64,000 nt of DNA from Artemia franciscana (lineage: Eukaryota; Arthropoda; Branchiopoda; Anostraca; Artemiidae). The DNA is taken from positions 1,736,001-1,800,000 of the forward strand of contig NC_088872.1 in NCBI RefSeq assembly GCF_032884065.1, given 5' to 3'. The notes beneath the pieces are model-generated. The model was not told the origin of the DNA, did no database searches, and saw nothing but the letters and a program-made list of their open reading frames with translations. Every line of letters begins with the position of its first letter. Position 1 is the stretch's first letter. A program made the translations under genes and the position numbers. This document shows positions 16,907 through 44,768 of this stretch, piece after piece.

Positions 16907-16909
16907 CAG

Positions 16910-25836: not shown

Positions 25837-25899
25837 GTAAGTATAAAAAGAGCTTGTTACCGTCAGCGTGAGATATTCATGACTCGAGCCTATCAGAAA

Positions 25900-26390
25900 C
25901 CTTGGCGAAAGTAAAACAGTTCAAAATAGGGATGAAACCTTTTTATTGACAGTGAACAGATATAAAATTTAACTGGATTAACTGGAAAAAAATCTTATTC
26001 AAGAATAATTCCATAAACAGAAATACGGGTGAATTTGGATTGAATTCAATTTGATAATTTACTGAGTTCAAATAAAGTAAATATCACCTCATCTAAAAGC
26101 TATGACCTCTGTCCACCTGGTATGTCAGATAAATCTCATGAACCGGAACCGAAAAGGTCAAAGAGACTCGCTTCCGCTGTTGCATTGAAAAAAATAAGAG
26201 CAATAAACTATATGTAATTAGTTTATTAGGTATAAATTTTGTTTGGTTTTATTCATGTCCTTTAGTTTTACTGCTGATGATGAACACTGTATATGTGTTC
26301 GAAATATCAAGTTAAATTTTGTATATGTTCACTGTCAATAAAAAGGTTTCATCCCTTTTTTTAACTGTTTTACTTTCGTCATGGAAAGGC
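25900..26390. mobile_element. Short element with ~60-bp terminal inverted repeats
   Basis: The left arm (about 25905-25975) contains AGTAAAACAGTTC, GGGATGAAACC and TTTTTATTGACAGTGAACA. The right arm (about 26310-26385) is its reverse complement with few differences. The 330-bp interior shows no ORF. A motif CTGCTGATGATGAACACTG...GTGTTCGAAATATC at 26271-26310 is reminiscent of Penelope-like element termini. Non-autonomous; class undecided. Confidence 0.6.
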
Positions 26391-26940
26391 AGTGTGGTCT
26401 TCGAATCAGAAACCATCAGAAACGTTATCCATCAGAAACCTTATTAAACAAATTAACACTTTTTTTAATCCCAGGGCAGTCATTTGCTATAAACAAATCT
26501 TTCACGTAAACCTATAATACATGATTTCATATCTGACAAACTAAGAATTTAAAAGTAGTTATTGCTAAATTACCATCTAAAGGTTTTTTTCTTAGCACTA
26601 CCCCCTATATTAGACTAACGAGAGCTAAGCCAGTGTTAAAGGTAAAATTTATGTTGCCCCTATTATTTAAAAAAAAGAATTCAATCTGTAATAGTTTAAA
26701 AATAGTCAATATTTTTCAAGCCCTCTTTGGTACCACGGTCTAACAGGCTAGTTATATATACATCTTTATAGTTATATATACATCTTAAATTTTTCAGATG
26801 TGTATATACATCTGATTAGAGAAAATCAGGAATCAAACTTTCGATTAAAAAAAGAGACCTACATTAGCCGTTATGCGGCTTTTGTAGGTGCTAAAGTAAA
26901 ACAAAAAATGAAAGGTGAGCATAAAACAAGCATAAACTGG
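26391..26940. other. AT-rich non-coding sequence with short repeats of ATATACATCT
   Basis: Nothing gene-like. 26748-26815 holds repeated AGTTATATATACATCTT and an inverted copy (AGATGTGTATATACATCT). Confidence 0.5.
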
Positions 26941-26944
26941 TAAC

Positions 26945-27296
26945 CCCTGGTTCCCACTGCTGCGATTTCGCGCAAAATCCTGCGACATGCGACAAATGAT
27001 ACAAATCGTGCGACAAATGACGCAAAACCGTCTGTTTTGCTGCAATGTAATTTCAACTCATACGACAAATCGCATGTGTTGTTCTGATTAAAAAAAAGGA
27101 AAAAAAACTCATAAGCAACAATTTGATGTGATTACAAAGGATCACGAGTTTGAGATCCTGATTTGAATTCTTCTAGAGTTTGTCGCAGCGACGCAAAAGT
27201 CTGCGTTTCTTGGTGAACCTCTATCCGATTCTGTCGTACGTCTGTTCCGCCAGAAAAAAAATCGTGTCGGGATTGATGCAGCAGTGGGAACTATTA
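26945..27296. mobile_element. MITE-like element with short TIRs (GTTCCCACTGCTGC)
   Basis: Left end GGTTCCCACTGCTGCGA at about 26949. Right end TGATGCAGCAGTGGGAAC at about 27274-27291, its inverted repeat. The interior is rich in GCGACAAATG, a sequence style frequent in small DNA transposons. No coding capacity; target duplication not resolved. Confidence 0.6.
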
Positions 27297-27887
27297 GTAA
27301 AACAGATTTGGCACATAATAGCGTAAGAAGCTGCTTATGCTGTTATTGCAGCTTCATAGCTAGCTAGAAGCTGCAGCTGTCATTTGAAGGTGTAGCTGAT
27401 CGAATTTTTACGGACGAACAGCATTGTCAAACTTAACCAAGTTGTCCTTCTTATTTATTTCACTGTGGTAACATTGTTGGAAGTGTGGAACTACGGAAGA
27501 ATATTCATAGTTCTGAAACAACCAAAAGAAAAATGAGAAAATTGACGCTTTCAGGTAATGAAAAGACCTATAATGGGTCAAGGGACAAAAATTATTCTTT
27601 TATTTGAGTGCCCTTGTACTTTAAATCGCAACAGAAAGCTGGTCTCCAACATTTCAATTCTGAACAAGACATTCATGTTTTAGCCTCCCTGTATCTTAAA
27701 AATATTTAACAAGGTCTGCTTCATAGCTTCAATTCATTTCACCCATTTCATGTTATTAACTAAAACATTCAGTTTAAGGTTGGATGAGGGTATGCTACTA
27801 AACAAAATAATGAGATTATTATTGTTATTATTGCGCTAATGTTGGACTTAGTAAATTGGGTCATTATTATTATTAAATAAAAAAAAA
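27297..27887. other. AT-rich non-coding sequence
   Basis: No ORF or repeat family recognised; a short ATTATTATT run occurs near 27815-27880. Confidence 0.5.
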
Positions 27888-29350
27888 ACAAGTTTTTTTT
27901 AAATGAAAGTAAGGAGCAACATTAATACTTCGAACGAACAGAAATTACTCCGTATATGAGAGGGGCTTTTCCTCCTCAACGCCACGTTCTTTACGCTAAT
28001 TTTTGACTCTTTCTCTTGGCTCTATTTTTAAAACAGTAAAAAACTCTAGCGTAAAGAGCGGGGCATTGAGGAGTAAAAGCTCCTTTCATATACGGAGTAA
28101 TTTCTGTTCGTTTTAAGTTATAATGTTGCTCCTTACTTTCATTTAAAAAAAAAGTTGTTTTTTTCTTTTTAATTTCTGGACGTTTTTGAATTAATACATG
28201 TATTGATCATGGCTCTCCGCACATAAATAATTAAAACAAACGTTGCATATTAATTATTTGTAATTAATCATAAGACTTTGAGAAAAAATAACTTTGAGAC
28301 TTTGAGAAAATTTGGGAGGAGGCCAAGTTGACCTCCAATTTTTTGATTACTTAAAAAAGCAACTAGAACTTTTAAATTTTTACAAACGTTTTCATTGGTA
28401 AAAAATATACGTAGCTTGCGAATTAACTTACGTAACGAACTTCTATATTCGTATGTTTTTATAGCGTATATGAGGGGGTTCAACCCTCGTCGATACCTCG
28501 CTCTTTACACTAAAGATTAAATTGTGTCCCAATTCCTTAAGAATGGCCTCTGAATCACAAAGGCCGCAGAATAAATAGTTGAAATTAACTATTTAAGTTA
28601 ATTAAGTAATTAAATTAAATATTTAAAATAGTTAAATACCTTGCTCTTTATACTAAAGCTTAAATTGTGTCCCAATTCCTTAAGAATGACCTCTGAATCA
28701 CAAAGGCCGTAGAATAAATAGTTGAAATTAACTATTTAAGTTCGTTTTAAGTTTTGATGCTGCTCCTTACTTTCAGTTGAAAAAACTTTTCATATTTACT
28801 TTTTATTGTTTTTCTTAAATAGTGCTAAAAGATCCTGCGCCCCCTTATTGAAATTGTCTTCCCCATGAAAAGTTTCTCCATGGAAATATCCTCCCACGTA
28901 ACCCCCCCCCCCCTCAACTATCCCCCTAAACCAAAAAAATCCCCCTGTAAACGTCTGTACACTTCCCAGTGATCATTACTATATGTAAATACAGGCCAAA
29001 GTTTGTAACTTGCAACCCCTCTCACGGGGACTGCGGGGGAGTAAGTCGTCCCTAAAGACATAGTTAAAAGGTTTTTCGACCATGGTGAATAAAATTGCTA
29101 TCTCAGAATTTTGATCCGGTGACTTTGGGGAAAAAACTGAGCGTGGGAGGGGCCCTAGGGGCCCTCTAATTTTTTTCGTCACTTAAAAAGGGCAGTGGAA
29201 CTTTTAATTTCCTTTAGAATGAGACCTCTCTCGACATTCTAGGACCACTGAGTCGATACGATCACGCCTGGGGAAAAAACAACAAACAAAAAATCAAACA
29301 AATAAAAACGCATCCGTGATCTGTCTTCTCGCAAAAAATGCGAAATTCCA
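27888..29350 (+). repeat. Composite foldback repeat (element E), copy 1
   Basis: It opens with a ~270-bp hairpin: left arm 27888-28000 and right arm 28050-28159, loop about 50 bp, arms containing GAAAGTAAGGAGCAAC and ACGAACAGAAATTACTCC. Then block B (GGCTCTCCGCACATAAAT; TTACGTAACGAACTTCTATA), block C (ACCTCGCTCTTTA, AGAATGACCTCTGAATCACA, partly duplicated at 28500-28740) and block D (CCTGTAAACGTCTGTACAC, TTTGTAACTTGCAACCCC, AGTCGATACGATCACG). The order matches the copies at 53215 and 59340. No protein-coding potential seen. Confidence 0.8.
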
Positions 29351-29354
29351 AATT

Positions 29355-29510
29355 TTCAAACAGTTCGTGGTAACGGACTGTAGTAAGGAACGACCCGGCT
29401 CAATAGTAAACGAAACTCTAAAAAAAGGAACTTCGATGCTAAAAGATATATCAAAAGAATCGGATTTTATGCTGATTTTAAATATATAAGTTTGTCATCA
29501 AGGAGGCACA
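29355..29510 (-). repeat. Inverted end of element E
   Basis: AAACAGTTCGTGGTAACGGACTG, then GGAACGACCCGGCTCAATAGTAAACGAAAC: reverse complement of the D-end found at 56060-56115 and 60970-61020. It lies directly after copy 1, back to back. Confidence 0.75.
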
Positions 29511-29559
29511 CTCGTGCCTCTATAAAGAGGCGACACACGACAATGTTAAGCGATCTTCG

Positions 29560-30125
29560 GTTCCAGTGGTCGCAGACGGATGGGGAGGGATGCATTTCGT
29601 AGCCCGAGCTCCAACTAAGAAACCTGCAAAATTTCATCCCCCTCCAACTTTTTCTTCACGGGGAAAATCTGGCCGAAAGTTTCGACCTGTCAACCCAAGC
29701 CCCCCTTTAACGTTGTCCGATCGGACTGAAATTCACAAGTTAAGGTCCCCTAGGGCCCAGGAGCTTATCCGCGAAATTTCAGCTTGATCCGATAACTCCT
29801 TCCCTGTTTTCCAGAAACCACGCATAGCCACTTAAAATTCATTCACTTTTTTTTTCTAGACGCCTACAGGTCACATCCGACATCGGATCTGGGTGTACGA
29901 AGATTCATTCGATGCGGAATTCTCCGAGTAAGTGCCCATGAAAGTTTCGTAGGAAAATCTTAACCCCCCGAAAGTTTCGACCCTCTAACCCCCCTCCACC
30001 CCTTTTAACGTTGTCCGATCGGGCTGAAATTCACAAGTTAAGGTCCCCTACGGCCCAGGAGCTTATCCGCGAAATTTCAGTTGGATCCGATAACTCCTTC
30101 CCTGTTTTCCAGAAACCACCCATTA
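29560..30125. repeat. Two diverged tandem ~300-bp repeats
   Basis: 29690-29826 and 29980-30122 share CTTTTAACGTTGTCCGATCG, GAAATTCACAAGTTAAGGTC, CCCAGGAGCTTATCCGCG and CTCCTTCCCTGTTTTCCAGA. The reading frame at 29566-29787 is a by-product. Confidence 0.8.
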
Positions 30126-30215
30126 GCTATTTAAATTAACGGATTTCTCTCCATAAGAGCCCATGTTAATTTGAAATTTTTAAAAGCTATTGAGAAGTTA
30201 AATTTACAAACATGC

Positions 30216-30287
30216 AAGTTATTAGCTCAGTTGGTAGAGCGTGAGACTTTTAATCCTCTGGTCAAGGGTTCAAGTCCCTTACGGGCG
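30216..30287 (+). tRNA. Degenerate tRNA-Lys(UUU)-like gene, probably a pseudogene
   Basis: TAGCTCAGTTGGTAGAGCG (D arm, A box) at 30223-30241, an anticodon loop CTTTTAA with TTT, and a perfect T arm AAGGGTTCAAGTCCCTT (B box), then ACGGGCG and a T run (pol III terminator) at 30289. Anticodon-stem mismatches and an acceptor stem that does not pair well (5' AAGTTAT against ACGGGCG) argue against a working tRNA. It may be a SINE head. Confidence 0.55.
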
Positions 30288-30310
30288 ATTTTTTTTCACA
30301 ACATCAAAAC

Positions 30311-30560
30311 AATTTTGATAACACCTGGACAGCTTATCATTTGAGAGATAACAGAATATTAGCTTCTTATGAGCAAAAGAAACATTTCGGTCATTCTATC
30401 TATTTTTTTTTTCTATTTTATACAATGATTTAAAAGCGGGGGGGGGGGGCTCCTCTCCTAATTCCTGTACGAGGAGTACAGGAACTATTAAATTACATCC
30501 ACCATGGATTGTAGAAAAACGTACAGAATTAATACGAAAAAAAATTAAACCTGTACAAAA
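30311..30560 (+). repeat. Left ~240-bp direct repeat flanking the Helitron-USP gene
   Basis: Starts TTTTGATAACACCTGGACAG and continues through TTATGAGCAAAAGAAACATT, a T-run, AATGATTTAAAAGCGGGGG, a hairpin CCTGTACGAGGAGTACAGG (30465-30483) and ATTACATCCACCATGGATTG. The right copy begins at 39978 in the same orientation with about 95% identity by eye. The spacing of the two is about 9.67 kb. Confidence 0.85.
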
Positions 30561-30880
30561 GAGTCTTTAAAAGCGGGGGGTTTGCCTCTCCTAATAGTCT
30601 TCTTATAGTCCTAATAGTCTAATAGTCCCATGTTAATTTTTGAAATTCTTAAAAGTTACGAATATCAACATTCAAGTACATCAAAATAATCAGCTCGGCA
30701 CGGCGAGAATGACTGCAAGCATCATAAAAATCCAGCTCCATTCCAGATATTAAATTATGTAATTGGAAATTCTCCTTGATTGGAAATGTTTTCCAAACTG
30801 AACGCAGACGCCATCTAGCATATCAGAAATGAACTTCCTAAACGCCATCTGTCCTTTTTTGAGAGAAAATTTACAATTTA

Positions 30881-31300
30881 TCTAAATAGAATTGTATCAG
30901 TTGAACTTGAGCCAAGCTAGGAAAGAGAGAATTTCTACAGCAGAAGATTAGATTTCCGAAGCTAAGTACCAGACTAGGCTATCTAATCATAATTAATCTT
31001 TCTCTTGCCTCACCTATCTGGATAGAATTGTATCAGCTGAACTTGGGCCAAGTTAGGAAAGAGAGATCTTCTACAGCAGAAGATTAGATTTCCGAAGCTA
31101 AGATAGGCTAAGATAGAAGCTAGATAGGCTATCTATCATCATTAATCTTTCTCTTGCCTCACCTATCTGGATAGAATTGTATTAGCTGAACTTGGGCCAA
31201 GTTAGGAAAGAGAGATCTTCTACAGCAGAAGATTAGATTTCCGAAGCTAAGTACCAGACTAGGCTATCTATCATAGTTAATCTTTCTCTTGCCTCACCAG
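30881..31300 (+). repeat. Triple tandem repeat just upstream of the large ORF
   Basis: Three units (about 30881-31014, 31015-31162, 31163-31300) each run from ATCTGGATAGAATTGTATCAG through GGAAAGAGAG, ACAGCAGAAGATTAGATTTCC to TTAATCTTTCTCTTGCCTCACC. The middle unit has an extra AGATAGGCTAAG stretch. Each unit ends in a pyrimidine-rich tract; only the last continues as CACCAG and so provides an AG acceptor. Confidence 0.9.
31281..31300 (+). other. Candidate 3' splice site before the Helitron-USP ATG
   Basis: TCTTTCTCTTGCCTCACCAG: a strong polypyrimidine tract and CAG ending 12 bp before the ATG at 31313. It suggests a 5' UTR intron. No donor has been identified. Confidence 0.5.
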
Positions 31301-31312
31301 GTCTTTTCTACA

Positions 31313-34300
31313 ATGCCAAGCAAAGCTAGGCAACTAAAGCAGAAAATGAAAAGAAAGTATGATGAGGAAAAACAAGAAATTAGCGAGATAAGAAGGAAAT
31401 ACTACCAGGAAAATAAGGACCGAATCAAGGAGGATGTAAAGAGCCGCTTTCAAACAAATGAGATGGCAAAGGAGCGTAACCAAACAAAAGCTTTGAAAAG
31501 ACATTCCAAACTGTATGCAGCATCACAAGATTATCGCTCAAGGAAAAATCAGGTAAAGCTCACTCAGTACAACAACCACAAGGACAAATTTTCACAACTG
31601 TTTGGTGACTACTACAAGAGAAACAGGGACATCTTGACTGCAAAACTATGGGTGAGAAAAGAGATGAAAAATGGTACACCAACACCCCTGTCGCGAACCA
31701 AACATGGAAAAAATGGTAATAAAGCGCCACCCGCAGCAGAAGCTACCAGCATCTCATTTTCTGCATGCTACTGTCCACGCACAGAACGCCAAGAGTCAGC
31801 AGCATTCAAAAAAGCAGTAGAACACAGAATGAAGAATGATGCAATTTTGTCCCAGAGATCGCGCGTGAAACAAAAGCGACACAGACAGTATTATTTGGGA
31901 AAAGCGCGTAAAGTTCAGAAAATGCAGAATGATTTAAAGGAGATGCAACAAGTTCTGAATATGCACTATTGCAACACGGAAGACTCGAAGGAAGCCATAA
32001 AATTGGAATTTGCACGTGCAAACAATGTCATAGAAATGGCAACAAATTCGCTCGCAAAGCGACATGCGCTTAATGCAGCAAAATGTGAAAAATTTCTCGA
32101 CAACTTGCCAGAAGACGAACCCCCAACCCTCGAAGACTTTACAACAGCTATGGGTAATTTGAGACAACACAGTGAGTACACGGAGCCATATTTTTATGAA
32201 ACGGCCTACACTAACTACGGAACTAATATCTGTCGCGTTTGTAATTCTTTTTCAGACAATGTCTATACGGTTATACCCATCGACGAAGAAGGAAGCGCGA
32301 GATTTTTCCAGCAATCAGAGACTGAGACACCAGTACGACCCAAGCAAAAATGTTCATGCTTACCACCAAGTTGCGCCCCGGGTCGTGCCACTCCGCAACA
32401 AACCAAGCCCAGCAGAATTCACGACGCATGGAAACAATTTCCCTCTCCCAGTTCTAGATTAGAATCCCAGTCCTCACAGGTTTCCCAGACCCGCAGTTTG
32501 CCCGACTGGAATCTGCCGCCCTCTTTTCGCTTTCAGGAAAGTCAGTGTTCTCAGACACAAGATGACGACTTAAGTAGCGAGGATGAAAACGAAAAGTACA
32601 TTCCTCCACGTAAAGAGAAGAAAAATACCAAGAAAGATGATAATGATGATGATGAAGATGTAATACCAGTAACAGTAAGATGGGAGTGTCATGAAGACCT
32701 ATGTAAGTTCAATTTAGACGATATTTATGCTTGTCAACACTTTTTTTCCAGGATGGAGCAGACGAAAACCGACCAACTCCCAACTAATGCATTAATCCCC
32801 TTTTATTTGGAGTCTTTAGATGCATGCAAGAACCCGCTGCGTCGTACAGATAAACTAGGTCACTCACCATTTTGTGCAATCGACACCGGATGCTACAGCT
32901 TTTTGAGACCGATGAGAGCACTCAAACCACATTTTCCAGTGCTGAACCGATTTGTCTGCGACATATACAAGGCCATAGTCAGATGTAAGATCATCGTCAA
33001 GCTGAACATGCTCAAAGCCAAAGGCACACTTAAACAACTGCAAAAAGCAGTCAAAAAGGCCATCACAAGCCTCCAAGAGAGGGGTAAAGCTGACGAATCC
33101 ATGTTCGATCCGCAGCACCGAATTCTCATTGACGAAGAATCCTTAAAACAGGCGTATGGAAAGAATTTGGAAAAAGTGGCAGCCAACCGTGACGAGTATC
33201 CCAGTGTAGCCTGCGACTGTTGCGAAATGCTAAAAATGGGCAAGGACCTGAAAACGCTTCGATCATATACAAACCGAAAAGGCTTTGACGACATGTTGAC
33301 GTCGGTGCTCGAAAAATTTCAGCAAGACTTACCTGAGGAAGAGCGAGAATTGGAAAACGATGCAGGCTGGGTGAACGATATCAAGGACAACTTCAAAGTA
33401 TGCACATACTGCGCAGGGAAAATGACCGACAGCAAAGAGAATGCACGATGCGTGTTCAATAACCTACAGGCGAAGCCCACACCCGACTGCATCAAAGTGC
33501 TCAACCGCTTTGAACTTGCGATGATCAAATTTGTAATGACCTGTGTAACCATTGTACGCTTGGGCCAAGTCACAACCTTCAAAAGACCCAGGACTGAGCT
33601 GACGGATGCACTAAAAGGAAGAATCGTATACTTGCCAATTGACGTTCAAGCAAATGCAGAAGTTCTGCCCGAAAATCTTCTCAATGTAGACAGCTTTGTG
33701 ATTCTCGTTGGAGGTCAGCCCACGTACAGTAAAATAGTCTGGACCAGTGTGATAGATCTGAGGAAAGTCCACGAGGCACTACTCTGGCTCAGAGAAAACA
33801 ACAGACTCTATGCCAACATTAAAGCGTACACAGTACAAGAACTGGAGGAAATTCTTGAAACGCGACTCGCAGAGAAAGAAAAAGGCATCGAAAATCCTCA
33901 ACCTATCCCTGACGAATCAATCCTCAAACGCCTGACAGACAACGCAAAGTCTGAGCTCCTTGAACATTTCTCGGTGCAAGCCATTGATTCAACAGTGCCA
34001 AAAGATTTTATCGAGGACTTTAAAAACAACAAACAGAGTGACGTTGACGAATTTCAGTTTAAAAAAATACAGGGAGACGCGGAAAACATTTTCGACCCGG
34101 ACCTTGACCTGAAAGCATTTCCGCACCTGTTCCCAGACGGTAGTAATGGACTGCAAGAGACTGCCCGCAAATTTAAAATGCGAAACGCAGACTATATCAA
34201 ATGTCGCCTCCTTAGTCGACATCCTCAGTTCAGACTCGACAAAAACTATCTCTTCCACAATTTCCAATTCCAAGAGGTGGCACACATGTGCAACAGCGTG

Positions 34301-37300
34301 AATCATATGCTTCGCACCGTAAAGCCCAAGCAAAACATTGGCGATTTCATGCAGAGACTGCAAAAACGAGACGGAGAAATGGAGGGCAGCCTGTTCTCAG
34401 TTCAGTCAAAGCTAAGAGGCTCGCGTCAGTACTTTCAAGCCCTATCGACAAAGGTAAAATCAATGATCCAACAGGACGGTCCGCCAGCCCTCTTTGTAAC
34501 GCTCTCCTGCGCCGAATGGTACTCTATTGAATTCATAGACTATCTGCGCACGATAAATAAGCATGTACCCGGCGCCGCCAACATGACACCTGCTGAGCTC
34601 ACAGCCATGGACCCAGTTAGCGTCTCAAATCATTTTCACAAAAAATGGCGCGCAATGTTCAACGAACTCATCGACGCCAAAGAGAAACCGATTTTCGGCA
34701 AACTTGCGAACCATTTTTGGCGCATAGAGTACCAGACTCGCGGAGCACCTCACGTACACTGCCTCCTATGGATTGAAGGAGCACCAATTATTGGCAAAGA
34801 TCCTCGTGAAAAGGTACTCGAGTACATAAACAGTATTGCCACGTGCGAGATGCCAGACAAACTAAAGAGTCCGACGCTGCACAAGCTCGTAAACGATCAT
34901 CAGAAACACCGCTGCAACACCTACTGTCGCAGAAAATACAAGAGAGGCAGAAACTGGGTTACCTACTGTCGATTCGGTTTCCCACCCCCAAAACATGATC
35001 TGACTGTTCTCCACGACATACTCAACTGCCTTGCGACAGGACGCGACAAAAAGAAACCGCGAAGACGAATCTATGATTTGAGACGTGACGAACACGAACG
35101 CTACATAAACGACTATCATCCTGCCCTGCTCTTGGCCAATCTCTCCAACGTTGATGTCCAGTACATTGGTCACTTGGGCTCAAAACTGCCCTATTATGTC
35201 ACAGACTACATGACAAAAGCAGAGTCTGCAGAGGTCGATGCAATGTGGGAAGAAGTAAACAACGCGTTCACAAGCCTCGGCCAGAAAGCAATGTCCTTTC
35301 TCCTGAAAACAGTCAAGAATCGCCAAGTTGGCGCCGTTGAAGCAGCAGACAGACTCCTCGGAACAAAGCTGTACAGCATATCGCGCCAGTTTCGCTTCGT
35401 AGATCTATCACGCCACAGTGAACTAAAGAGAACTCTAAAAAAATACCAGGAACTCGAAGAGCTCGCAAAAAATAATCCCGACAGCGAAGACCTCTATGTG
35501 GCGCATTGGGTTGCAGACGTCTATCCAAACAGACCATACGACATGGAAGACATGAGCCTGTTTGAACTGTTAGCCTGGTACGAACGCGAGAGAAAAGGCA
35601 CAGACGAAAAACTACTGCTCAGAGATGGATCCTTTTATTTGCGCAGACGAAAGGAAAAACCCTACGTAATCCAGCACAGGCGCGTGAATCCAGTGGAATC
35701 GGACGAAAAACGCGAGGAATACTATGGCATGCTTCTGAAGCTTTTTAAACCGTGGCGTAAAGAGGAGGACATCTGTTTCGATGGGAAATCCAACCATGAA
35801 ACTTATTGCATCGAGAGCGATAACTATCCCACCATGGTCGAGTATCACGAGCGCTCTGTAGCAAAAGTACGAGAAGAAGAAGAGTTTGAACGCAAAGTAC
35901 GAGAACGTGCAAAAGAACTCGAAGAGAAAGAGAAAGAAGCAGCACTCGAAGAGAACATGGACGACCCACAGAATGCAATTCAAGGCGCCGCCATAGATAG
36001 AGCAGCAGACGCAATGGAAGACCTTGTGAATGCAAATCGACGACTGCTCGACGCCAACACAAAAGAACAAGTGGCAAAAGAATATTTGTCTCTGAATGTT
36101 GACCAGAAACGTGTTGTTGACAAAGTGACGAACGCAGTCAAATCACTCAACAAGACAGCACCACTCCGTATGATTGTCTCAGGATTCGGAGGTACAGGCA
36201 AGTCAGTTGTGATAAAAGTGATTCGAAACATCCTCTGTCATCATTTCAGCAAAGACAAATGTCCCGTCATCGTTATGGCACCCACAGGACTTGCAGCATA
36301 CAGCATCAAAGGAGAAACAATACACAGATGCTTCAGTTTGCCCGTCGATCAAGCAGGAACCTCCAAATACTCTGAACTCTACACTGAGCAACTGCTGACA
36401 CTCAGGGCAATCCTACAGAAAACACATCTCTTCATCATTGACGAAATAAGCATGGTCTCCGCGCTCGCATTCATGTACATCCATCTGCGACTCACAGAAG
36501 TCATGAGCATCAACGCTGTCATGGGAAACGCAAATATGCTAGTCTTTGGCGACTTTCTACAACTCAGACCTGTCTCCGCAAACCCACCGTTCAAGCAACT
36601 CACACGGCTGGAAATAAAAAATCGGATCGGCTCAATGGGAACATTTGATCTCTGGAGTCACTTTGAATATGACGAGCTCACTATTAACATGCGTCAGAAA
36701 ACGGACACAGACTATGCCGACCTTCTCGCAAATATTCGCGTAGGAATTTGCACAGACAACAATCACGAACAGCTACAGCGGCGAAAAATCGAATCTAATC
36801 GCAGAGCAACAAACGAGGAGATTGCCGACAAGTATATCGAACTAGTGGCGCTTGGGAAAACACCAGTCATTCTCATGCCAAGAAACGTAGACTGCAGATC
36901 GATAAACGAAACGCTGCTTGCGAAAACCTCAGACAACATTTCCACCTTCACTGCCATCGATAGACTCTCCACCGTCCTCCGTGACAAGCGTATTGAAGCT
37001 GAGGCTGCAGAAAACGTAAAGAGCTTTGAAAACGACAGCAAACGAACCGCCGGGTCAATTTCTCACCTCAAACTGGCACTCGGCGCTCGCGTCATGCTAC
37101 AGCGAAACGTTAACGTAGAAGAAGGTCTCGTCAATGGTTCCATGGGCTATGTTAAAGGATTCAAGATGACAGCGGCAAATATAGCAGTCGGCATACAAGT
37201 ACAGTTCGACGGACAAGATAAAATCGTGGAAATCGAGCGTGAAACAGTGAAATTCGAGGCTCTCAAAGAGGTGTACTACACACGTAGACAGTTTCCTCTG

Positions 37301-38755
37301 ACGCTGGCCTACGCCATCACCATCCATAAATCCCAAGGACTGAGTCTACAGACTGCACTAGTTGACGCAGGTGATCGCTGTTTCGGACCAGGTATGATCT
37401 ATGTAGCTCTCTCTCGTGTCACCATGAGCGAAGGTCTACACCTCATCGATCTTGACAGAAGGAAAATTTGTGCAGACACAGAAGCTCTAGTCGAGTACAA
37501 TAGACTGCGACAAAAGTATCGTCCAGATCTGCCCCAGTTCGCAATACCAGAACCCTTCAAAGTTCCCACAGTTCCAGTGGCGAAACAGCAACCAGTTAAA
37601 CGAAAACCGAGTAGCAGCACCAGCATAGACGTACCGCCAAAGAAATCCAAACCTGATGCAGCCAAAGATAAGCCCAAGACTAACCCAACACCCCCACGGA
37701 AAGTGAAACCCACTACAAGTGAGGCGAAGAAAAAAGCGCCCACCAAGAGATTGAACGCGGAAACAGTTGAAACCTCATTTCCCACAAAGAAAACGCAGCA
37801 CGACACAGCTGTCAAACAAAACTATCGCAGTGGCATTGGCCCGGGTAGAAAAGGCCTGAAAAATACAGACGGCTCAGCGTGCTATGCGAACGCAACGATG
37901 CAAAGCCTTTTTGCCATGCACTACAAGCTGTTCGAAGTACTCTCAGTTATGCACGGACCTCTCGCCGAAGAACTCAAACGATTGGCACTCAGTTCGCTCG
38001 GAAAGAATGAAACTATGGACACCGTGCGTAGCCTCCTGCCGCCACAGCACAACTACACAGGCAGAGATCAGCAATCGCTATGCGAATTCTGGTTCCACCT
38101 ATTTGAACAACTCGACGCAGAACATCAAGCCAATGACATGAGCCCCCTTCGCTCCCTGTACCAGTTCAAGATTCATAGATTTTCTGTCTGCAGCACGTGC
38201 CACTGGTCCAAAACCGCATTGCACCCAGAAGGTACTCCAGACTGTCCATTTCCGATTCCAGGTGTTCTAAATCCCAACGAGCCTGCGATCAACGAAATTA
38301 TCGACAACAACGACATTTCTTTCAGTTCGGTTCTAATCCCAGAGCAGCCCGGCGAAACATGTCCCAACGGTCACGTCACCAAACTGAAAACAGTCTTCAC
38401 TCAAGCTCCTGAGTACTTGGCCCTCAATCTGGACAGACGAACACTCTGCCACAAGATTACGCGACGCGTCATTGACTTCGACCCGGAGCAAATTCTTTTA
38501 CATAGAACAGATGACGCTGACCTCAGACACGGCAACATCTACAACCTCGGCACAATGTCATCAATACGATACCGTGCAATTGCTGTTGTCATTCACTCAG
38601 GGTCCAGCTTTGGAAACCAGGGCCACTACTATGTATACCGCAGAACACTGGAAGGTGCATGGTGCAAATGTAACGACTCTGAAGTAAGAGTTGCCAAAAA
38701 CGCGTCAGAAATAGACTTTTCAGGTATGACATTCATGATACTTCAGAAACTGTGA
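31313..38755 (+). CDS. Helitron-like Rep-helicase with C-terminal USP (C19) protease domain
   Basis: A single open frame of 2480 codons from ATG 31313 (the frame is open to a TTG at 31289). Residues 1-250: basic and coiled-coil. About 310-360: Cys-rich (ICRVC, CSCLPPSC). About 420-460: acidic. About 640-850: zinc-like and DUF6570-like section (CTYCAGKM, LNRFELAMIKF). About 925-1320: Helitron HUH initiator, with FVTLSCAEW, EYQTRGAPHVHC (His1147, His1149) and YYVTDYMTK (Tyr1295, Tyr1299); these would nick and hold DNA ends in rolling-circle transposition. About 1590-2050: PIF1/RecD-like helicase, Walker A GFGGTGKS (1624-1631), Walker B IIDEISM (Asp1710, Glu1711), ITIHKSQGLSL and YVALSRV. About 2060-2170: Lys/Pro linker. 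About 2175-2480: USP-like fold with GLKNTDGSACYAN (Cys2190), CSTC and CPNGH (possible zinc finger), GHYYVY (His2438) and NDSEV (Asn2454/Asp2455). All key residues are intact, so the copy may be recent or active. Confidence 0.92.
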   Translation: MPSKARQLKQKMKRKYDEEKQEISEIRRKYYQENKDRIKEDVKSRFQTNEMAKERNQTKALKRHSKLYAASQDYRSRKNQVKLTQYNNHKDKFSQLFGDYYKRNRDILTAKLWVRKEMKNGTPTPLSRTKHGKNGNKAPPAAEATSISFSACYCPRTERQESAAFKKAVEHRMKNDAILSQRSRVKQKRHRQYYLGKARKVQKMQNDLKEMQQVLNMHYCNTEDSKEAIKLEFARANNVIEMATNSLAKRHALNAAKCEKFLDNLPEDEPPTLEDFTTAMGNLRQHSEYTEPYFYETAYTNYGTNICRVCNSFSDNVYTVIPIDEEGSARFFQQSETETPVRPKQKCSCLPPSCAPGRATPQQTKPSRIHDAWKQFPSPSSRLESQSSQVSQTRSLPDWNLPPSFRFQESQCSQTQDDDLSSEDENEKYIPPRKEKKNTKKDDNDDDEDVIPVTVRWECHEDLCKFNLDDIYACQHFFSRMEQTKTDQLPTNALIPFYLESLDACKNPLRRTDKLGHSPFCAIDTGCYSFLRPMRALKPHFPVLNRFVCDIYKAIVRCKIIVKLNMLKAKGTLKQLQKAVKKAITSLQERGKADESMFDPQHRILIDEESLKQAYGKNLEKVAANRDEYPSVACDCCEMLKMGKDLKTLRSYTNRKGFDDMLTSVLEKFQQDLPEEERELENDAGWVNDIKDNFKVCTYCAGKMTDSKENARCVFNNLQAKPTPDCIKVLNRFELAMIKFVMTCVTIVRLGQVTTFKRPRTELTDALKGRIVYLPIDVQANAEVLPENLLNVDSFVILVGGQPTYSKIVWTSVIDLRKVHEALLWLRENNRLYANIKAYTVQELEEILETRLAEKEKGIENPQPIPDESILKRLTDNAKSELLEHFSVQAIDSTVPKDFIEDFKNNKQSDVDEFQFKKIQGDAENIFDPDLDLKAFPHLFPDGSNGLQETARKFKMRNADYIKCRLLSRHPQFRLDKNYLFHNFQFQEVAHMCNSVNHMLRTVKPKQNIGDFMQRLQKRDGEMEGSLFSVQSKLRGSRQYFQALSTKVKSMIQQDGPPALFVTLSCAEWYSIEFIDYLRTINKHVPGAANMTPAELTAMDPVSVSNHFHKKWRAMFNELIDAKEKPIFGKLANHFWRIEYQTRGAPHVHCLLWIEGAPIIGKDPREKVLEYINSIATCEMPDKLKSPTLHKLVNDHQKHRCNTYCRRKYKRGRNWVTYCRFGFPPPKHDLTVLHDILNCLATGRDKKKPRRRIYDLRRDEHERYINDYHPALLLANLSNVDVQYIGHLGSKLPYYVTDYMTKAESAEVDAMWEEVNNAFTSLGQKAMSFLLKTVKNRQVGAVEAADRLLGTKLYSISRQFRFVDLSRHSELKRTLKKYQELEELAKNNPDSEDLYVAHWVADVYPNRPYDMEDMSLFELLAWYERERKGTDEKLLLRDGSFYLRRRKEKPYVIQHRRVNPVESDEKREEYYGMLLKLFKPWRKEEDICFDGKSNHETYCIESDNYPTMVEYHERSVAKVREEEEFERKVRERAKELEEKEKEAALEENMDDPQNAIQGAAIDRAADAMEDLVNANRRLLDANTKEQVAKEYLSLNVDQKRVVDKVTNAVKSLNKTAPLRMIVSGFGGTGKSVVIKVIRNILCHHFSKDKCPVIVMAPTGLAAYSIKGETIHRCFSLPVDQAGTSKYSELYTEQLLTLRAILQKTHLFIIDEISMVSALAFMYIHLRLTEVMSINAVMGNANMLVFGDFLQLRPVSANPPFKQLTRLEIKNRIGSMGTFDLWSHFEYDELTINMRQKTDTDYADLLANIRVGICTDNNHEQLQRRKIESNRRATNEEIADKYIELVALGKTPVILMPRNVDCRSINETLLAKTSDNISTFTAIDRLSTVLRDKRIEAEAAENVKSFENDSKRTAGSISHLKLALGARVMLQRNVNVEEGLVNGSMGYVKGFKMTAANIAVGIQVQFDGQDKIVEIERETVKFEALKEVYYTRRQFPLTLAYAITIHKSQGLSLQTALVDAGDRCFGPGMIYVALSRVTMSEGLHLIDLDRRKICADTEALVEYNRLRQKYRPDLPQFAIPEPFKVPTVPVAKQQPVKRKPSSSTSIDVPPKKSKPDAAKDKPKTNPTPPRKVKPTTSEAKKKAPTKRLNAETVETSFPTKKTQHDTAVKQNYRSGIGPGRKGLKNTDGSACYANATMQSLFAMHYKLFEVLSVMHGPLAEELKRLALSSLGKNETMDTVRSLLPPQHNYTGRDQQSLCEFWFHLFEQLDAEHQANDMSPLRSLYQFKIHRFSVCSTCHWSKTALHPEGTPDCPFPIPGVLNPNEPAINEIIDNNDISFSSVLIPEQPGETCPNGHVTKLKTVFTQAPEYLALNLDRRTLCHKITRRVIDFDPEQILLHRTDDADLRHGNIYNLGTMSSIRYRAIAVVIHSGSSFGNQGHYYVYRRTLEGAWCKCNDSEVRVAKNASEIDFSGMTFMILQKL

Positions 38756-39205
38756 ATCTGTCATTAACAGTACTTTAATTCTCGTTTCAGATTCCAGTTG
38801 CCATCAAATGTCACAAAACGTAAACAATCTGTTTCTCTAGAAACAACTGTCCACATCTGTTTTTTTAAAAACACCAAAACCGTCAGTGATCTGCCGCGGT
38901 TAGGCAGTGAGACTACCTTTTCTTCCCCGTAATCTGTTGTCTGTCATCGGTCAGAGCTTGCAAGCTTAAGAATCATAGTCAACCATGACACAGCACAGCA
39001 GTACCAAAAAATACACGAAAAAATACAGCAGTACCAAAAAATACCAAAAATACACGACTTTAAAATGCACTTGCAATATAAGTTTTTGATTGAATTTATG
39101 CAAGAAAATCTGATGATATTAAAAACAATATAGCTGAGGAGAGAATGCAAAATCCATATAAAAATCAACCCGTGTGTAGCAGTTTAATTTTGAAATAGAA
39201 TATAA
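38756..39205. other. 3' flank of the large ORF, no gene
   Basis: AT-rich. It contains a possible acceptor TTAATTCTCGTTTCAG (ending 38790) and a short tandem run of CAGCAGTACCAAAAAATAC (38992-39055). A donor-like CAG|GTATGA sits inside the end of the ORF at 38720-38728, so alternative splicing of the tail is conceivable. Confidence 0.4.
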
Positions 39206-39511
39206 CAATTCGAAATTTTAGCAGATCTCGACAACGATGAAATAATCGATGAAAGTGCCGAAGTTTCATCTGTTCCTAGTGTGACTATTGTGCAAAGTTC
39301 TGAACAAGTCGTTGTGAAACCTTTTATACAAAAACGACCTCAGCCATTCACTCGTCTTCAACGCCCAAGTTTGCCAAGAAGAATCAATGACTCACCTCTT
39401 CGTCAAAGACAGCACCAACCCACTCCAGATCCACTCCTAAGTGAAAGTGATTCTGACTATTATGATGAAAGTGATGATGAAGTTGTTGACAATTTTAAAA
39501 GAATAAGTTAG
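39206..39511 (+). other. Unrecognised ORF, possible 3' exon with acidic tail
   Basis: Open for about 100 codons and ending at TAG 39509-39511. An AG acceptor-like TTCGAAATTTTAG ends at 39221. The encoded sequence contains DLDNDEIIDESAEV, a Pro/Arg-rich middle (PFTRLQRPSLPRRIND) and SESDSDYYDESDDEVV. The composition looks protein-like but I know no family. It lies between the Helitron-USP ORF and the right direct repeat, so it could be a second product or an alternative C-terminal exon of that element. Confidence 0.4.
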
Positions 39512-39963
39512 AAAAAGTCAAGATTGTGAATGGACGTGTAAGATGCTTCGATGTGGGCAATTTCCCCCATTCTGGTAGCTGTAAGAAATTTATAAATTGT
39601 GCACGAGTTGACTGGAGCTGTAAGATACATGTCCAAAAGAACTGACTTTTGACCCTGTTGGGGACTTTGCAACTGGGGCAATCCTCAGCGATGTCCGAAA
39701 TAAGTGTGATATAAATGTGCTTTAAGTATATATTTTATAGCCTTTAAGTGCTCATTGCCAATTTTTAGGTGAATTTTCAAATGTTTTGAAGAAGTTTAAG
39801 TTTTTCTCGATTTAATGAAACGTGGAAATTTACTTATTTTATATAAATAGTTGCTAAATAAGATAAATAATATATAATTTACTATAATTACCTAAAGATG
39901 TTTCCTATATGAGAAGGCATTTTTAGAATAAATTCTTTTTTATAGGCTTTTGGACGTAGCGAT

Positions 39964-39972
39964 CAAAATAAA
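39964..39972 (+). terminator. Possible polyadenylation signal (AATAAA)
   Basis: CAAAATAAAAG lies at the end of the interval between the ORF and the right direct repeat; another AATAAA occurs near 39928. Candidate transcript end for the large ORF; no independent support. Confidence 0.3.
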
Positions 39973-39977
39973 AGTGT

Positions 39978-40212
39978 ATAATTTTGTTAACACCTGGACT
40001 GCTTATCATTTGAGAGATAACAGAATATTAGCTTCTTATGAGCAAAAGAAACATTTCGGTCATTCTATCTATTTTTTTTTTCTATTTTATACAATGATTT
40101 AAAAGCGGGGGGGTTGGGGGCGGCAGCCACCCAACTTCCTCTCCTAATTCCTCCACGAGGAGTACAGGAATTATTAAATTACATCCACCATGGATTGTAG
40201 AAAAACGTACAG
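39978..40212 (+). repeat. Right ~240-bp direct repeat flanking the Helitron-USP gene
   Basis: Matches 30311-30530 from TTTTGTTAACACCTGGACTG to CATGGATTGTAGAAAAACGTACAGAA. It differs by a longer G-rich insert (GGTTGGGGGCGGCAGCCACCC) and by loss of the perfect hairpin (CCTCCACGAGGAGTACAGG). Confidence 0.85.
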
Positions 40213-40214
40213 AA

Positions 40215-41004
40215 ATAATATGAAAAAAACTTCGTTTTCTTAAAGAGTTAAAGAGGCTGCGTCCCAAAGTCGAACCTTAAAACGTACAGGAATTAGAAAA
40301 GGCAGTTGGGGGGCTGCCGCCCCCCAAACCCCCCGCCTTTAAAGACTCTTTTGTACAGGTTTTTTTTTGTGGGGGGACTTCATTGTTACTAATTATTTTC
40401 TTAAAGAGTTAAAGAGGCTGCGTCCCAAAGTCGAACCTTAAAACGTACAGGAATTAGAAGAGGCAGTTGGGGGGCTGCCGCCCCCCAAACCCCCAGCTCT
40501 TAAAGACTCTTTTGTACAGGTTTTTTGTTTTTTTGCTAACCCCCCGCTCTTGGCTTGGGAAAGGCCCTCTTTTAATTAACAAAAAATTGAAATGAATGAA
40601 TAATGGAATAACTTCAAAAAATGTTAAACACAAGAGGACAGGAGAACCATTGCGCCGAAACTAGTAATTAGTAACAATGAAGTCCCCCCACAAAAAAAAC
40701 CTGTACAAAAGAGTCTTTAAAAGCTGGGGGTTTCGGGGGCGGCAGCCCCCCAACTGCCTCTTCTAATTCCTGTACGTTTTAAGGTTCGACTTTGGGACGC
40801 AGCCTCTTTAACTCTTTAAGAAAATAATTAGTAACAATGAAGTCCCCCCACAAAAAAAACCTGTACAAAAGAGTCTTTAAAAGCGGGGGGTTTGGGGTGC
40901 GGCAGCCCCCCAACTGCCTTTTCTAATTCCTGTACGTTTTAAGGTTCGACTTTGGGACGCAGCCTCTTTAACTCTTTAAGAAAACGAAGTTTTTTTCATA
41001 TTAT
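40215..41004. repeat. 790-bp palindrome made of tandem ~170-bp G/C-hairpin units
   Basis: The left end ATAATATGAAAAAAACTTCG and the right end CGAAGTTTTTTTCATATTAT are exact inverses; the centre lies near 40610. Each arm holds two units with TCTTAAAGAGTTAAAGAGG, GTCCCAAAGTCGAACC, ACGTACAGGAATTAGAA, a hairpin TTGGGGGGCTGCCGCCCCCC and AAAGACTCTTTTGTACAGG. Related single motifs occur in the direct repeats. The central ~130 bp is not symmetrical. Confidence 0.92.
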
Positions 41005-41505
41005 CTATATAAAAACGAGTTGTGTGTATGCATGTTTGTTTGTTTGTAAAAAGAGCGTTTGCATATGACGTCATTATTAGTGCATACGGCTTTGTATGTG
41101 CACAGGCAATGGGAAAGCCAAGAATGTTGTATATTCGCAATTTTTACGTAGTTTAACTCCTGCAGACGAAATGAATGCTTGCCTGAAAAATTCTAATTTA
41201 TGGGCACACGTAAAAATATTAAAATTAACTACAAATATGCGTGTCCGATTGCAAAACGATGATTCTGGTCAAACATTTTCAGATCAATTGCTGGCAATTG
41301 GAAACGGAAAGCTTCCAGTAGTGGGAAAGCCAAAAATGTTGTATATTCGCAATTTTTACGTAGTTTGAAACACATATATAAATCTATCTATATTCACAGG
41401 TGGGACACAGGGACACAACTACAATGGCGCGTAACTAATATGGCGCGTAACAACTTACGCGCACGGGGGGGCTTGGGGTGGCGCGAAGCGCCACCCCAAC
41501 AGCTA

Positions 41506-41506
<1 letters not shown>
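41004..41506 (+). mobile_element. Compact non-autonomous HelA Helitron (503 bp)
   Basis: 5' TC at 41004 (host A before it) with TCTATATAAAAACGAGTTG, and CTAG at 41503-41506 (host T after it) preceded by the hairpin GGGGTGGCGCGAAGCGCCACCCC. Inside are a TATGACGTCATTAT motif, a helicase remnant (LTTNMRVRLQNDD, GNGKLPV joined to GKPKMLYIRN) and the conserved 3' block. The internal deletion junction equals that of 14956-15288. The element is inserted precisely at the right end of the 790-bp palindrome. Confidence 0.88.
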
Positions 41507-42103
<597 letters not shown>

Positions 42104-43886
42104 TCTATATATATAAAAATAAGTTGTCTGTGTGTGGATCTGTGGATCTTTGGATCAGGTGACGTCATGTTTGTCCGCATATGACGTCTGAATTATTTCA
42201 CACTAATACAAAAGAAGAAAAAAACTAAAAAAGGTAAAAACTACAAAAAAAACTAAAAAGAAAAAAAAACAAAAAAAGCTAAAAAACTAAAAAAAACTAA
42301 AAAAAGGTAAAAATCTAATAACTAAAAAAAACTGAAAAAAATAAAAAAAGGCAAAAACTACAAAAAAAATAAAAACTAATAAAAAAACTAAAAAAGCTAA
42401 AAAACTAAAAAAACTAAAAAAAAACTAAAAAAAGGTAAAAAACTAAAAAAAACTAAAAACTAAAAAAGAAAAGAACTAAAAAAAAGGAAAAAACTGAAAA
42501 ATAAAAGAGAAAAAGAAAACTAAAAAAATATGAATAAATATATATAAAAATAAGTTGTTTGTGGGTTATGTCTGTCTGTCTGTCTGTCGAGTGACGTCGT
42601 GTTTGTCCGCATATGACGTCTGAATTATTTCACACTAATAGAAAAGAAGAAAAAAAACTAAAAAAGGTAAAAACTACAAAAAAAACTAAAAAGAAAAAAA
42701 ACTAAAAAAGCTAAAAAAACTAAAAAAAACTAAAAAAAAGGTAAAAAACTAAAAACTAAAAAAAACTGAAAAAACTAAAAAAAGGCAAAAACTAAAAAAA
42801 AACTAAAAACTAATAAAAAAACTAAAAAAGCTAAAAAACTAAAAAAACTAAAAAAACTAAAAAAAGGTAAAAAACAAAAAAAACTAAAAACTAAAAAAGA
42901 AAAAACTAAAAAAAAGGAAAAAACTGAAAAATAAGAGAAAAAGAAAACTAAAAAAATATTAATAAAGAAGAAAAAAACTAAAAAAGATAAAAACTACAAA
43001 AAAAACTAAAAAGAAAAAAAACTAAAAAAGCTAAAAAACTAAGAAAAACTAAAAAAAGGTAAAAATCTAATTACTTAAAAAAAAACTGAAAAAAATAAAA
43101 AAAGGCAAAAACTACAAAAAAAATAAAAACTAATAAATAAACTAAAAAAGCTAAAAAACTAAAAAAACTAAAAAAAACTAAAAAAAGGTAAAAAACTAAA
43201 AAAAAACTAAAAACTAAAAAAGAAAAAAACTAAAAAAAAGGAAAAAACTGAAAAATAAAAGAGAAAAAGAAAACTAAAAAAATATGAATAAATATATATA
43301 AAAATAAGTTGTTTGTGGGTTATGTCTGTCTGTCCGCATATGTCGTTGCGTGTTTGTCCGCATATGACGTCTGAATTATTTCACACTAATACAAAAGAAA
43401 AAAAAAAAACTAAAAAAGGTAAATGACGACCGGGACACAGGGACACAACTACAATGGGGACGCCGGGGGGCACAGGGGGATATAAATGACGACCGGGACA
43501 CCGGGACACAAGGAATATAAATGACGCCCGGGACACTCAAAGAGAAATCACAGACTGGAACACCGGGACACAAATGACGACCGGGACACAGGGAATATAA
43601 ATGACGACCGGGACACAGGGACATAACTACAAAGGGGACGCCGGGGTGCACAGGGGGATATATAAATGACGATGGCGACTCAGGGAATGGTCGATTAGCA
43701 ATCACCATCAACAAAGCTCAAGGGCAATCATTAGAATCATGAGGTATAGATCTGAATACGGATTGTTTTCCCATGGACCATTATATGTTGCATGTTCAAG
43801 AGTCGGTAAACCTGACAATCTATTTATATGCACAGACAATGGGACAGCAAAGAATGTTGTATATTCGCAAGTTTTACGTAGTTAAA

Positions 43887-43979
<93 letters not shown>

Positions 43980-44132
43980 ATATTCACAGGTGGGACATAG
44001 GGACACAACTACAATGGCGCGTAACTAATATGGTGCGTAACGACTTACGCGCGCGGGGGGGCTTGGGTGGGGGCGCGAAGCGCCCCCACCAACTAGGTGT
44101 TGGGGTGGCGTGAAGCGCCACCCCAACAGCTA

Positions 44133-44133
<1 letters not shown>
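42104..44133 (+). mobile_element. Non-autonomous HelA Helitron, plus strand, both ends
   Basis: 5' TC at 42104; TGACGTCA at 42161; A-rich tracts repeated three times, each with the ACAAAAGAAGAAAAAAACTAAAA start (42210, 42640, 42966); internal 5'-like motifs at 42540 and 43295; minisatellite 43425-43690; helicase C-terminal remnant 43690-43885; (TA)n 43888-43977; 3' hairpins; CTAG at 44130-44133. It is close to 11977-14092 but carries one more A-rich unit. Confidence 0.88.
43888..43977. repeat. (TA)n microsatellite
   Basis: Internal TA array of the Helitron 42104-44133, much shorter than the 320-bp equivalent at 13619. Confidence 0.95.
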
Positions 44134-44187
<54 letters not shown>

Positions 44188-44768
44188 TCTATCTCTATTC
44201 TCAGGTGGGACACAGGGACACAACTACAATGGCGCGTAACTAATATGGCGCGTAACAACTTACGCGTGCGGGGGGGCTTGGGGGGGCGTAAAGCGCCCCA
44301 CCAACTAGGTGTTGGGGTGGCGCTTGACACAAATCACGACCGGGACACGGAATATAAAAGACGACCGGGACACAGGGGCACAACTACAACGGGGACGCCG
44401 GGGGCACAGGCGGGATATATAAATGACGACCGGGACACAGGGATTGTTCGAATATAAATTGCAGACCGGGACACCGGGACACAAATGACGACCAAGACTC
44501 CGGGACACAGGGAATATAAATGACGACCGGGACACTCAAAGAGAAATTACAAACTGGGACACCGGGACAAAAATGACGACTGGGACACAGGGAATATAAA
44601 TGACGACCGGGACACAGGGACACATCATTAGAATAATGAGGTATAGATCTGAATACGGATTGTTTTTCCAATGGACAATTATATGTTGCATGTTCAAGAG
44701 TCAGTAAACCTGACAATCTATTTATATGCAAAGACAATGGGACAGCGAAGAATGTTGTATATTCGCAT
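44134..44768 (+). mobile_element. HelA Helitron fragments up to the assembly gap
   Basis: A short TA array (44134-44182), a conserved 3' block and first hairpin (44200-44325) that breaks off inside the second hairpin at GGTGGCGC/TTGACAC, then minisatellite (44330-44625) and a helicase C-terminal remnant (44628-44768) cut by the gap. Confidence 0.75.

Follow-up and report, generated by a model that had tools for sequence, protein, structure and literature searches.

Why would a rolling-circle transposon of Artemia franciscana carry a ubiquitin-specific protease (USP) at the end of its transposase? The question is raised by 64,000 nucleotides of contig NC_088872.1 (assembly GCF_032884065.1, positions 1,736,001 to 1,800,000 of the forward strand; here, the window, in whose coordinates positions are given). 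Within it a single open frame encodes a Rep domain, a helicase and a USP. On balance we lean towards reading it as part of a recently mobile, nearly intact rolling-circle transposon whose fused USP would protect the transposase or its repair partners from ubiquitin-driven removal.

A transposase that ends in a USP

The frame and its domains are laid out as follows:

31313..38755, + strand, Rep-helicase-USP open reading frame, 2480 amino acids
33458..33823, + strand, DUF6570, residues 716-837 (Pfam, 6.4e-12)
34193..34768, + strand, Helitron_like_N (PF14214), the HUH Rep domain, residues 961-1152, with HxH at 1147/1149 (Pfam, 1.3e-25)
35195..35209, + strand, YVTDY with Tyr1295 and Tyr1299, two-tyrosine Rep motif (motif position)
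36092..36763, + strand, PIF1-like helicase (PF05970), residues 1594-1817 (Pfam, 2.7e-27), with a 2B domain downstream at 1918-1949
37493..37822, + strand, basic linker, residues 2061-2170 (composition and BLAST)
37832..38752, + strand, USP / peptidase C19 domain, residues 2174-2480 (Pfam, alignment and fold)
37880-37882, 38624-38626 and 38672-38677, + strand, USP active-site codons for Cys2190, His2438 and Asn2454-Asp2455

The frame runs from its first ATG at 31313, and a TTG start at 31289 is also possible. With this base composition a run of 2480 stop-free codons has a chance of about 10^-57, which bears out the intact frame described in the initial annotation. The Rep, helicase and protease motifs were all found at the residues given there: HVHC at 1147-1150, YVTDY at 1295-1299, GFGGTGKS at 1624, IIDEISM at 1708, GSACYAN at 2187 (with Cys2190), GHYYVY at 2437 (with His2438) and NDSE at 2454. 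The role of YVTDY as the two-tyrosine Rep motif is taken by us from the Helitron literature. A two-tyrosine HUH Rep and a PIF1-type helicase within one protein are the hallmark of the Helitron superfamily.

The C-terminus had been proposed to be USP-like, and profile and structure prediction agree. The UCH family, to which USPs belong, was not reported by a Pfam scan of the full-length protein and was seen once the last 306 residues were scanned separately (PF00443, E 1.1e-19, profile positions 2-241 of 254, 71.5 bits against a curated cut-off of 23.9). UCH was the sole family listed for these residues, with no OTU (PF02338) at E up to 10, and our own OTU profile gave no match to the window protein (P0001). 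The segment is predicted to take a USP fold. Cys2190, His2438 and Asn2454-Asp2455 align with the catalytic positions of relatives. Cys2293, Cys2296, Cys2350 and His2354 align with conserved, mostly Cys, positions of other Helitron USPs, and are candidate Zn ligands. An OTU or non-peptidase C-terminus is ruled out by the PF00443 match, the null OTU profile and the fold.

The USP might act on its own protein, cutting the 2480 residues into Rep-helicase and other parts. The linker directly ahead of it is as basic as had been described (26 K/R and 10 D/E in 110 residues), and for the OTU proteases of Helentrons a role in signalling or in cutting the Rep/helicase/endonuclease protein has been proposed (PMC4067079; papers given by PMC number are cited from excerpts of their text). 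However, no LRGG or RGG, where a USP would cut, occurs anywhere in the protein. USPs moreover recognise folded ubiquitin. Polyprotein processing is therefore disfavoured, and we consider it highly improbable.

The fusion within the Artemia genome

A search of the 1.27-Gb assembly (6468 contigs) with the USP segment gave 117 matches, 19 of them at 91% identity or more, the window copy included. Seven of the 19 cover the segment to within one residue, one of these with a stop. The window copy is the only one with a frame above 2000 amino acids (2492, followed by 1479, 1094 and 1090). Over 2.7 kb of DNA, three copies agree at 98.8-99.4%, so this family (family A) moved recently. One copy, L038, arose by an internal deletion that joins 30907 to 38399. 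Copies L019-L022 have one common short form, with a USP fragment (37885-38485) and 3' stretches of the element.

The same helicase-linker-USP fusion is found in a second Artemia family (family B; L027-L029, L031-L036). Its helicase-holding aligned pieces are 53-76% identical to the window element (L027, 64% over 402 residues) and its USPs 47-49%. The family B frames, of which the last 800 residues were read, are 2679 amino acids long at two places, with identical USPs, and 2701 at one. A public contig, P0124, has the fusion at 81% identity. Chance read-through of the transposon into a host gene is ruled out by this recurrence in family B and P0124. The C-terminal USP is an integral part of the transposase, and by its sequence it would be a deubiquitinase.

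Among database proteins the USP segment is closest to one of A. franciscana (95% over 66% of its length), and a second from this species matches at 93% over 62%. Short copies that retain a USP fragment and element 3' parts were seen at L018-L022 and L025, and the annotated A. franciscana proteins P0122 and P0123, which have no Cys or His box, resemble such fragments. Helitrons make up 8.81% of a published A. franciscana assembly (PMC11492255). A different, very abundant Helitron family (L001-L008 and others) gives at least 150 Rep-domain matches, many of them in long open frames, and is about 21% identical to the window element in the Rep part (8 loci read).

Ends and class of the element

Comparison of copies places the open frame in a transposon with the following parts:

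29498..41003, + strand, whole rolling-circle transposon, 11,506 bp, 5' TC ... ATTA 3', inserted between A and T (copy comparison)
29498..29520, + strand, 5' terminus, TC and a 7-bp hairpin GAGGCAC-ACTC-GTGCCTC (29503-29520)
30850..31251, + strand, three tandem 117-nt repeats in the 5' untranslated part (family D7, 73-100% identity)
40208..41003, + strand, element 3' end with long inverted arms, 40208-40375 and 40844-41003 (I2, 95% complementary; also in other copies)
40980..41003, + strand, 3' terminus ...GAAGTTTTTTTCATATTA, without CTRR

The 5' end at 29498 is common to L054 and L038, whose flanks differ, and the 5' sequence TCAAGGAGG, beginning with TC, is present in these two and in the window. 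Two further 5' stretches that were fetched, L052 and L053, gave no match to the element 5' end. The 3' end at 41003 is common to L047, L048, L049, L018 and L025, with differing flanks, and to L020-L022, whose flanks begin alike; L050 is missing one base there. It reads ...CATATTA in the window copy and in the sister copies read. When the flanks of the copy at C2:6.64 Mb were joined with AT, 40 genome places matched 127/127 bases at 94-96%, and the three of these 40 empty sites that were read are all without a gap. These sites show that the element goes in between A and T and duplicates no target bases.

Both this mode of insertion and a 5' TC are what canonical Helitrons have too. Canonical Helitrons, however, end in CTRR preceded by a short hairpin. 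In the last 60 nt of the window element no perfect hairpin stem reaches 6 bp, and a hairpin with CTRR is present solely at 40763 and 41503, neither of them at the element end. The element is therefore not filed as a canonical Helitron. Helentrons carry a C-terminal AP-type (apurinic/apyrimidinic) endonuclease, whereas the window protein ends in the USP and no endonuclease family was found in its Pfam scans. For this reason it is not filed as a Helentron either. Helitron2 elements have asymmetric terminal inverted repeats, with palindromes at both ends; in the window element, inverted matches of at least 14 nt between 29000-31313 and 38755-41020 pair internal repeats only, not the termini, and the 5' hairpin lies at 29503-29520. 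The element is a rolling-circle Rep-helicase transposon with a divergent 3' end.

Several other features near the ends were considered. The 97% direct repeats at 30311-30449 and 39980-40118 were rejected as element ends since other copies extend past them; a same-orientation repeat of about 235 bp (30311-30546 and 39980-40214) lies in the 5' and 3' untranslated parts, in other copies too. A hairpin with CTAG near 41480-41513 was rejected as the 3' end because sister copies stop at 41003. It is part of a small non-autonomous canonical Helitron, read by eye at 41004-41513 on the + strand, with 5' TCTATATAAAAACG and a 3' hairpin GGGGTGGCGC-GAA-GCGCCACCCC, then CTAG before a T. This small Helitron begins on the base right after 41003, so one A-T junction is common to both elements. 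A tRNA-Lys-like stretch noticed by eye near 30217-30290 was dismissed after ARAGORN found 0 tRNA genes at 25000-45000.

A protease slot in related transposases

How rare is the fusion outside Artemia? A search with residues 900-2480 gave 243 matches, and the 120 listed were used, making 121 rows with the window protein. A protein search with the USP segment gave 4 matches, and the proteins collected in all number 125. No match at E 0.01 was found when residues 2170-2480 were compared with proteins of the full-length size range, and scans of viral contigs with the whole protein and with the USP gave 3 and 13 pattern matches, no relative among them.

A USP profile grown from the window protein finds a USP in 33 of the 125 proteins, after the helicase in the Rep-helicase ones, and Pfam adds P0074 and P0091. 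The 121 Rep-helicase rows comprise 28 with USP (window included), 52 with OTU, three with both and 38 unlabelled; the unlabelled rows, which are truncated or carry something else, stand outside the label counts. A USP thus follows the helicase in 30 of the 120 listed relatives, in three of them together with an OTU, and some of these USPs are partial or degenerate. The initial annotation had called a Rep-helicase-USP protein unusual: the fusion stands, and its rarity does not, given these 30 relatives and the second Artemia family.

Rep-helicase-USP proteins of Rhodnius, Linepithema, Nasonia and metagenomes (P0028, P0029, P0031, P0034, P0035, P0037, P0043, P0049, P0057, P0077 and others) have the same domain order and a C-terminal PF00443. 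They differ from the window protein in sequence (33-39% identity over Rep-helicase, about 16-24% in the USP). They are already in public databases with Pfam labels and, where named, are called "uncharacterized protein" or helicase. A full-text literature search, whose scope leaves out most subscription journals, found no description of a USP in a Helitron.

The closer relatives carry another protease. Rep-helicase-OTU Helitrons (P0002-P0023 type) likewise have one C-terminal protease and are 42-50% identical to the window protein over Rep, helicase and part of the linker, but hold an OTU where the window protein has its USP. The BLAST match to full-length OTU-bearing relatives stops in the linker, at about 2073-2155. 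OTU has been noted in animal Helitrons (PMC2836005). A third class, Ulp1 (PF02902, Peptidase_C48), lies at the C-terminus of P0085 by coordinates. Peptidase_C48 also stands in the Pfam lists of P0088, P0094, P0096, P0098 and P0110; of the six proteins, three are named Mnemiopsis.

A careful tree was built from 46 chosen rows (75 of the 121 omitted by choice, P0030 among them for length; P0124 and P0125 dropped for short cover). The sister of the window protein is a set of 26 rows, 22 with OTU and 4 without a label (support 100/99); the group that branches next outside has USP (4 rows and one unlabelled; 100/100, 98/96). In approximately unbiased (AU) tests a single OTU clade was rejected (p-AU 1e-73), as was a single USP clade (5e-29). 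In P0078, P0080 and P0084 a USP without Cys and His is followed by an OTU. This OTU groups with those of P0042 and P0067 (SH-aLRT 99, quick tree), which hints at a swap of domains among elements. In P0086 the C-terminal USP is degenerate and a Ulp1 lies at the N-terminus. The C-terminus of these transposases is a swappable protease slot, which holds USP, OTU or Ulp1.

What the USP may do for the element

In the reading that we lean towards, the HUH Rep would nick DNA and the PIF1-type helicase would unwind it. The element is inserted between A and T, as the empty site of a sister copy shows. The USP would accompany the transposase, and it may strip ubiquitin from the transposase itself or from the repair and replication factors that it meets. 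This stripping would prevent their proteasomal removal during transposition. The need would be for some ubiquitin-type protease and not for a USP as such, and unrelated protease classes would interchange in the slot because any of them serves.

The nearest experimental support, by analogy, comes from Helitron-encoded VTD deubiquitinases. In excerpt, these prefer K48 and K63 chains and are proposed to stop the degradation of transposition proteins, and zebrafish Helentron VTDs have been shown to be active (PMC9741609). Helentrons with VTD and OTU deubiquitinases are also rolling-circle elements with a fused deubiquitinase; they differ in protease class and in their C-terminal AP endonuclease, of which none was found in the window protein. 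A second comparison is Ginger1, whose single C-terminal slot holds OTU or Ulp1, never both, with no USP listed in the excerpted text, where a Trichomonas peptidase C19 with transposase_11 is also mentioned (PMC2836005). Ginger1 has interchangeable proteases in one slot, as do the window relatives, but it is a cut-and-paste element with a Gypsy-type integrase and no Rep-helicase.

Several observations weigh against this reading. The structural model has a pLDDT below 50 at segment residues 1-5, 132-138, 141-173, 203-215 and 233-242. The ratio of nonsynonymous to synonymous change (dN/dS) is 0.19-1.15 in family A, on 4-26 changes, counts too small for a selection test, and 0.41-1.29 in family B. 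In P0087 the USP is dead and Pfam finds no other protease, and the pairing of a dead USP with a further protease is drawn from one three-member clade and one more case.

Where the USP came from

The USP could instead be a passenger, a captured host gene fragment that happens to be in frame and brings the element no benefit. Helitrons often capture genes, and the short non-autonomous copies hold a USP fragment from which the Cys and His boxes are missing. A profile of the Artemia USPs matches host USPs as well as it matches Helitron USPs from outside Artemia: among solved host USPs it gives 53 bits for SAGA-bound 6tbm_Q, which we take to be Ubp8, and 41 for USP18, against 46.8, 30.4 and 25.5 bits for the Helitron USPs. 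A passenger is nevertheless quite improbable, as the fusion, the active site and the candidate Zn ligands are kept between two Artemia families whose synonymous sites are saturated, and the USP has the same position in the 30 listed relatives, which come from several animal groups.

For the source of the domain, we give about an even chance to the possibility that the Artemia lineage kept an ancestral Helitron USP, not acquired from a host gene, and that its sister clade swapped to OTU. This is the most parsimonious history on the Rep-helicase tree (2 changes on the subset), where four of the five rows next outside the window-plus-OTU clade carry a USP. A USP tree without hosts places the window USP in a 12-row Helitron clade (98/97). 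In tests on that tree a grouping of the window with P0028, P0029 and Rhodnius was kept (p 0.155) and one with the other group was rejected (p 0.015); the clades tested on this tree, on the Artemia-lineage tree and on the host-added tree were named after the tree was seen, and their p values are indicative only. Domains covering 200 or fewer profile positions were left out of the USP trees, P0041, P0074 and P0091 were added by hand in the host-free ones, and L009, identical to the window USP, was omitted from the Artemia-lineage trees.

Host sequences weaken this history. Three host USPs, when added, fall together (97/97) in a tree that is unrooted and does not thereby decide the relation. The grouping of Artemia with hosts against other Helitrons has p-AU 0.345, and that of Artemia with Rhodnius, P0028 and P0029 has p-AU 0.147. 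Profile scores give Helitron USPs no advantage either: a profile of 21 Helitron USPs, made without the window, scores the window USP at 72.6 bits, against 71.5 for the general Pfam model. After these tests simple retention from an ancestor was dropped as a settled account and kept as a rival one.

Free-standing relatives

The Artemia genome also has USPs of this kind that stand alone. Group S2 (L026, L030, L037) has USPs 46-48% identical to that of the window, without Rep-helicase, clustered at C9:38.39-38.42 Mb. The frames of L026 and L030 (567 and 647 amino acids) contain repeats that resemble coiled-coil and an N-terminal hydrophobic stretch; L037 has two stops. Group C consists of 13 matches at 35-39% identity, each spanning at least 286 residues and all 13 stop-free; some shorter matches at 34-42% contain stops (e.g. 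C1:20948967, C9:638269, C1:34986355) and are outside this count. Eight of the 13 were fetched with about 7.8 kb upstream of each, and the other five were left out:

L039-L046, group C loci: C1:48.09M, C5:50.69M, C18:31.70M, C17:6.25M, C17:6.66M, C10:43.75M, C7:53.08M, C19:29.23M

No Rep-helicase was found in the roughly 7.8 kb upstream of these eight loci, apart from one short helicase fragment on the opposite strand at L046. Their frames are 361-831 amino acids long. Exact spans of free-standing loci include C5:50690263-50691165, C18:31696107-31696991 and, in the S2 cluster, C9:38394259-38395176. Six of the eight USPs keep Cys and His; the His is gone in L043 and both are gone in L046. L045 keeps the two and has a changed third catalytic position. 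Deep group C pairs (with L039 or L046) have dN/dS of 0.32-0.56 and the other pairs 0.53-1.20, and the single S2 pair has 1.09 on 15 changes. Judged by these substitution patterns, the free-standing USPs appear to combine old constraint with recent fast change. Hydropathy shows a clear N-terminal hydrophobic segment in L026, L030, L039 and L045 and a weaker one in the other free-standing USPs, so that a membrane anchor is put forward as a suggestion only.

In the USP tree families A and B and groups S2 and C form one clade (100/100). Its inner order is less firm (A with B, p 0.22; C with S2, p 0.098), and the best tree joins B and C (80/84). A segment at about 2320-2334 in window residues is common to A, B and S2 and missing in C.

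The free-standing USPs bear on a further explanation, in which the USP acts outward, against host ubiquitin-dependent silencing or immune signalling. They indicate that the domain can exist without Rep-helicase, and viral deubiquitinases target host signalling (PMC9741609, in excerpt). Against this, the long family A and B copies keep the domain fused to the helicase, and none of the three top windows in a hydropathy scan of the window protein was an N-terminal hydrophobic segment. We regard outward action as rather unlikely, and return to protection of the transposition proteins as the preferred reading.

Either a Helitron USP was domesticated by the host or a host USP was captured by a Helitron. 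It is possible, and we say so tentatively, that the free-standing USPs, at 35-48% identity, descend from a Helitron USP and are now host genes. They would then be a second independent case after the insect VTD domains, which excerpts describe as inactive and testis-specific in Drosophila (PMC9741609). Like those insect genes, some of the Artemia USPs are relatives of a transposon deubiquitinase that lack active-site residues; the insect genes are of the VTD class.

Neighbourhood in the window

The neighbouring elements had been described as all broken, and this holds for those checked. There are seven other frames of at least 200 amino acids in the window, five with a Pfam family and two with none. 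The remains that were recognised are listed here:

16196-19520, - strand, Gypsy-type pol (reverse transcriptase, RNase H, integrase) broken into three frames
7621-8514, - strand, endonuclease/exonuclease-phosphatase fragment of the non-LTR (long terminal repeat) retrotransposon kind
4688-4864 (+ strand), 9988-10903 (- strand) and 15064-15642 (- strand), other Helitron helicase fragments, 25-43% identical to the window helicase

Implications

Deubiquitinases fused to transposases span unrelated classes: OTU, VTD, Ulp1 and, here, USP. A USP lineage that lies beside an OTU sister clade suggests that rolling-circle transposition truly needs control over ubiquitin, and that the fusions are no matter of chance capture. 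With its ends defined, its catalytic residue known and the element nearly intact, this role is open to direct cell-based tests. In the free-standing Artemia USPs we may have a new example of transposon enzymes turned into host genes, or of the reverse. If they were indeed domesticated, this would mean repeated exchange of deubiquitinases between transposons and their hosts.

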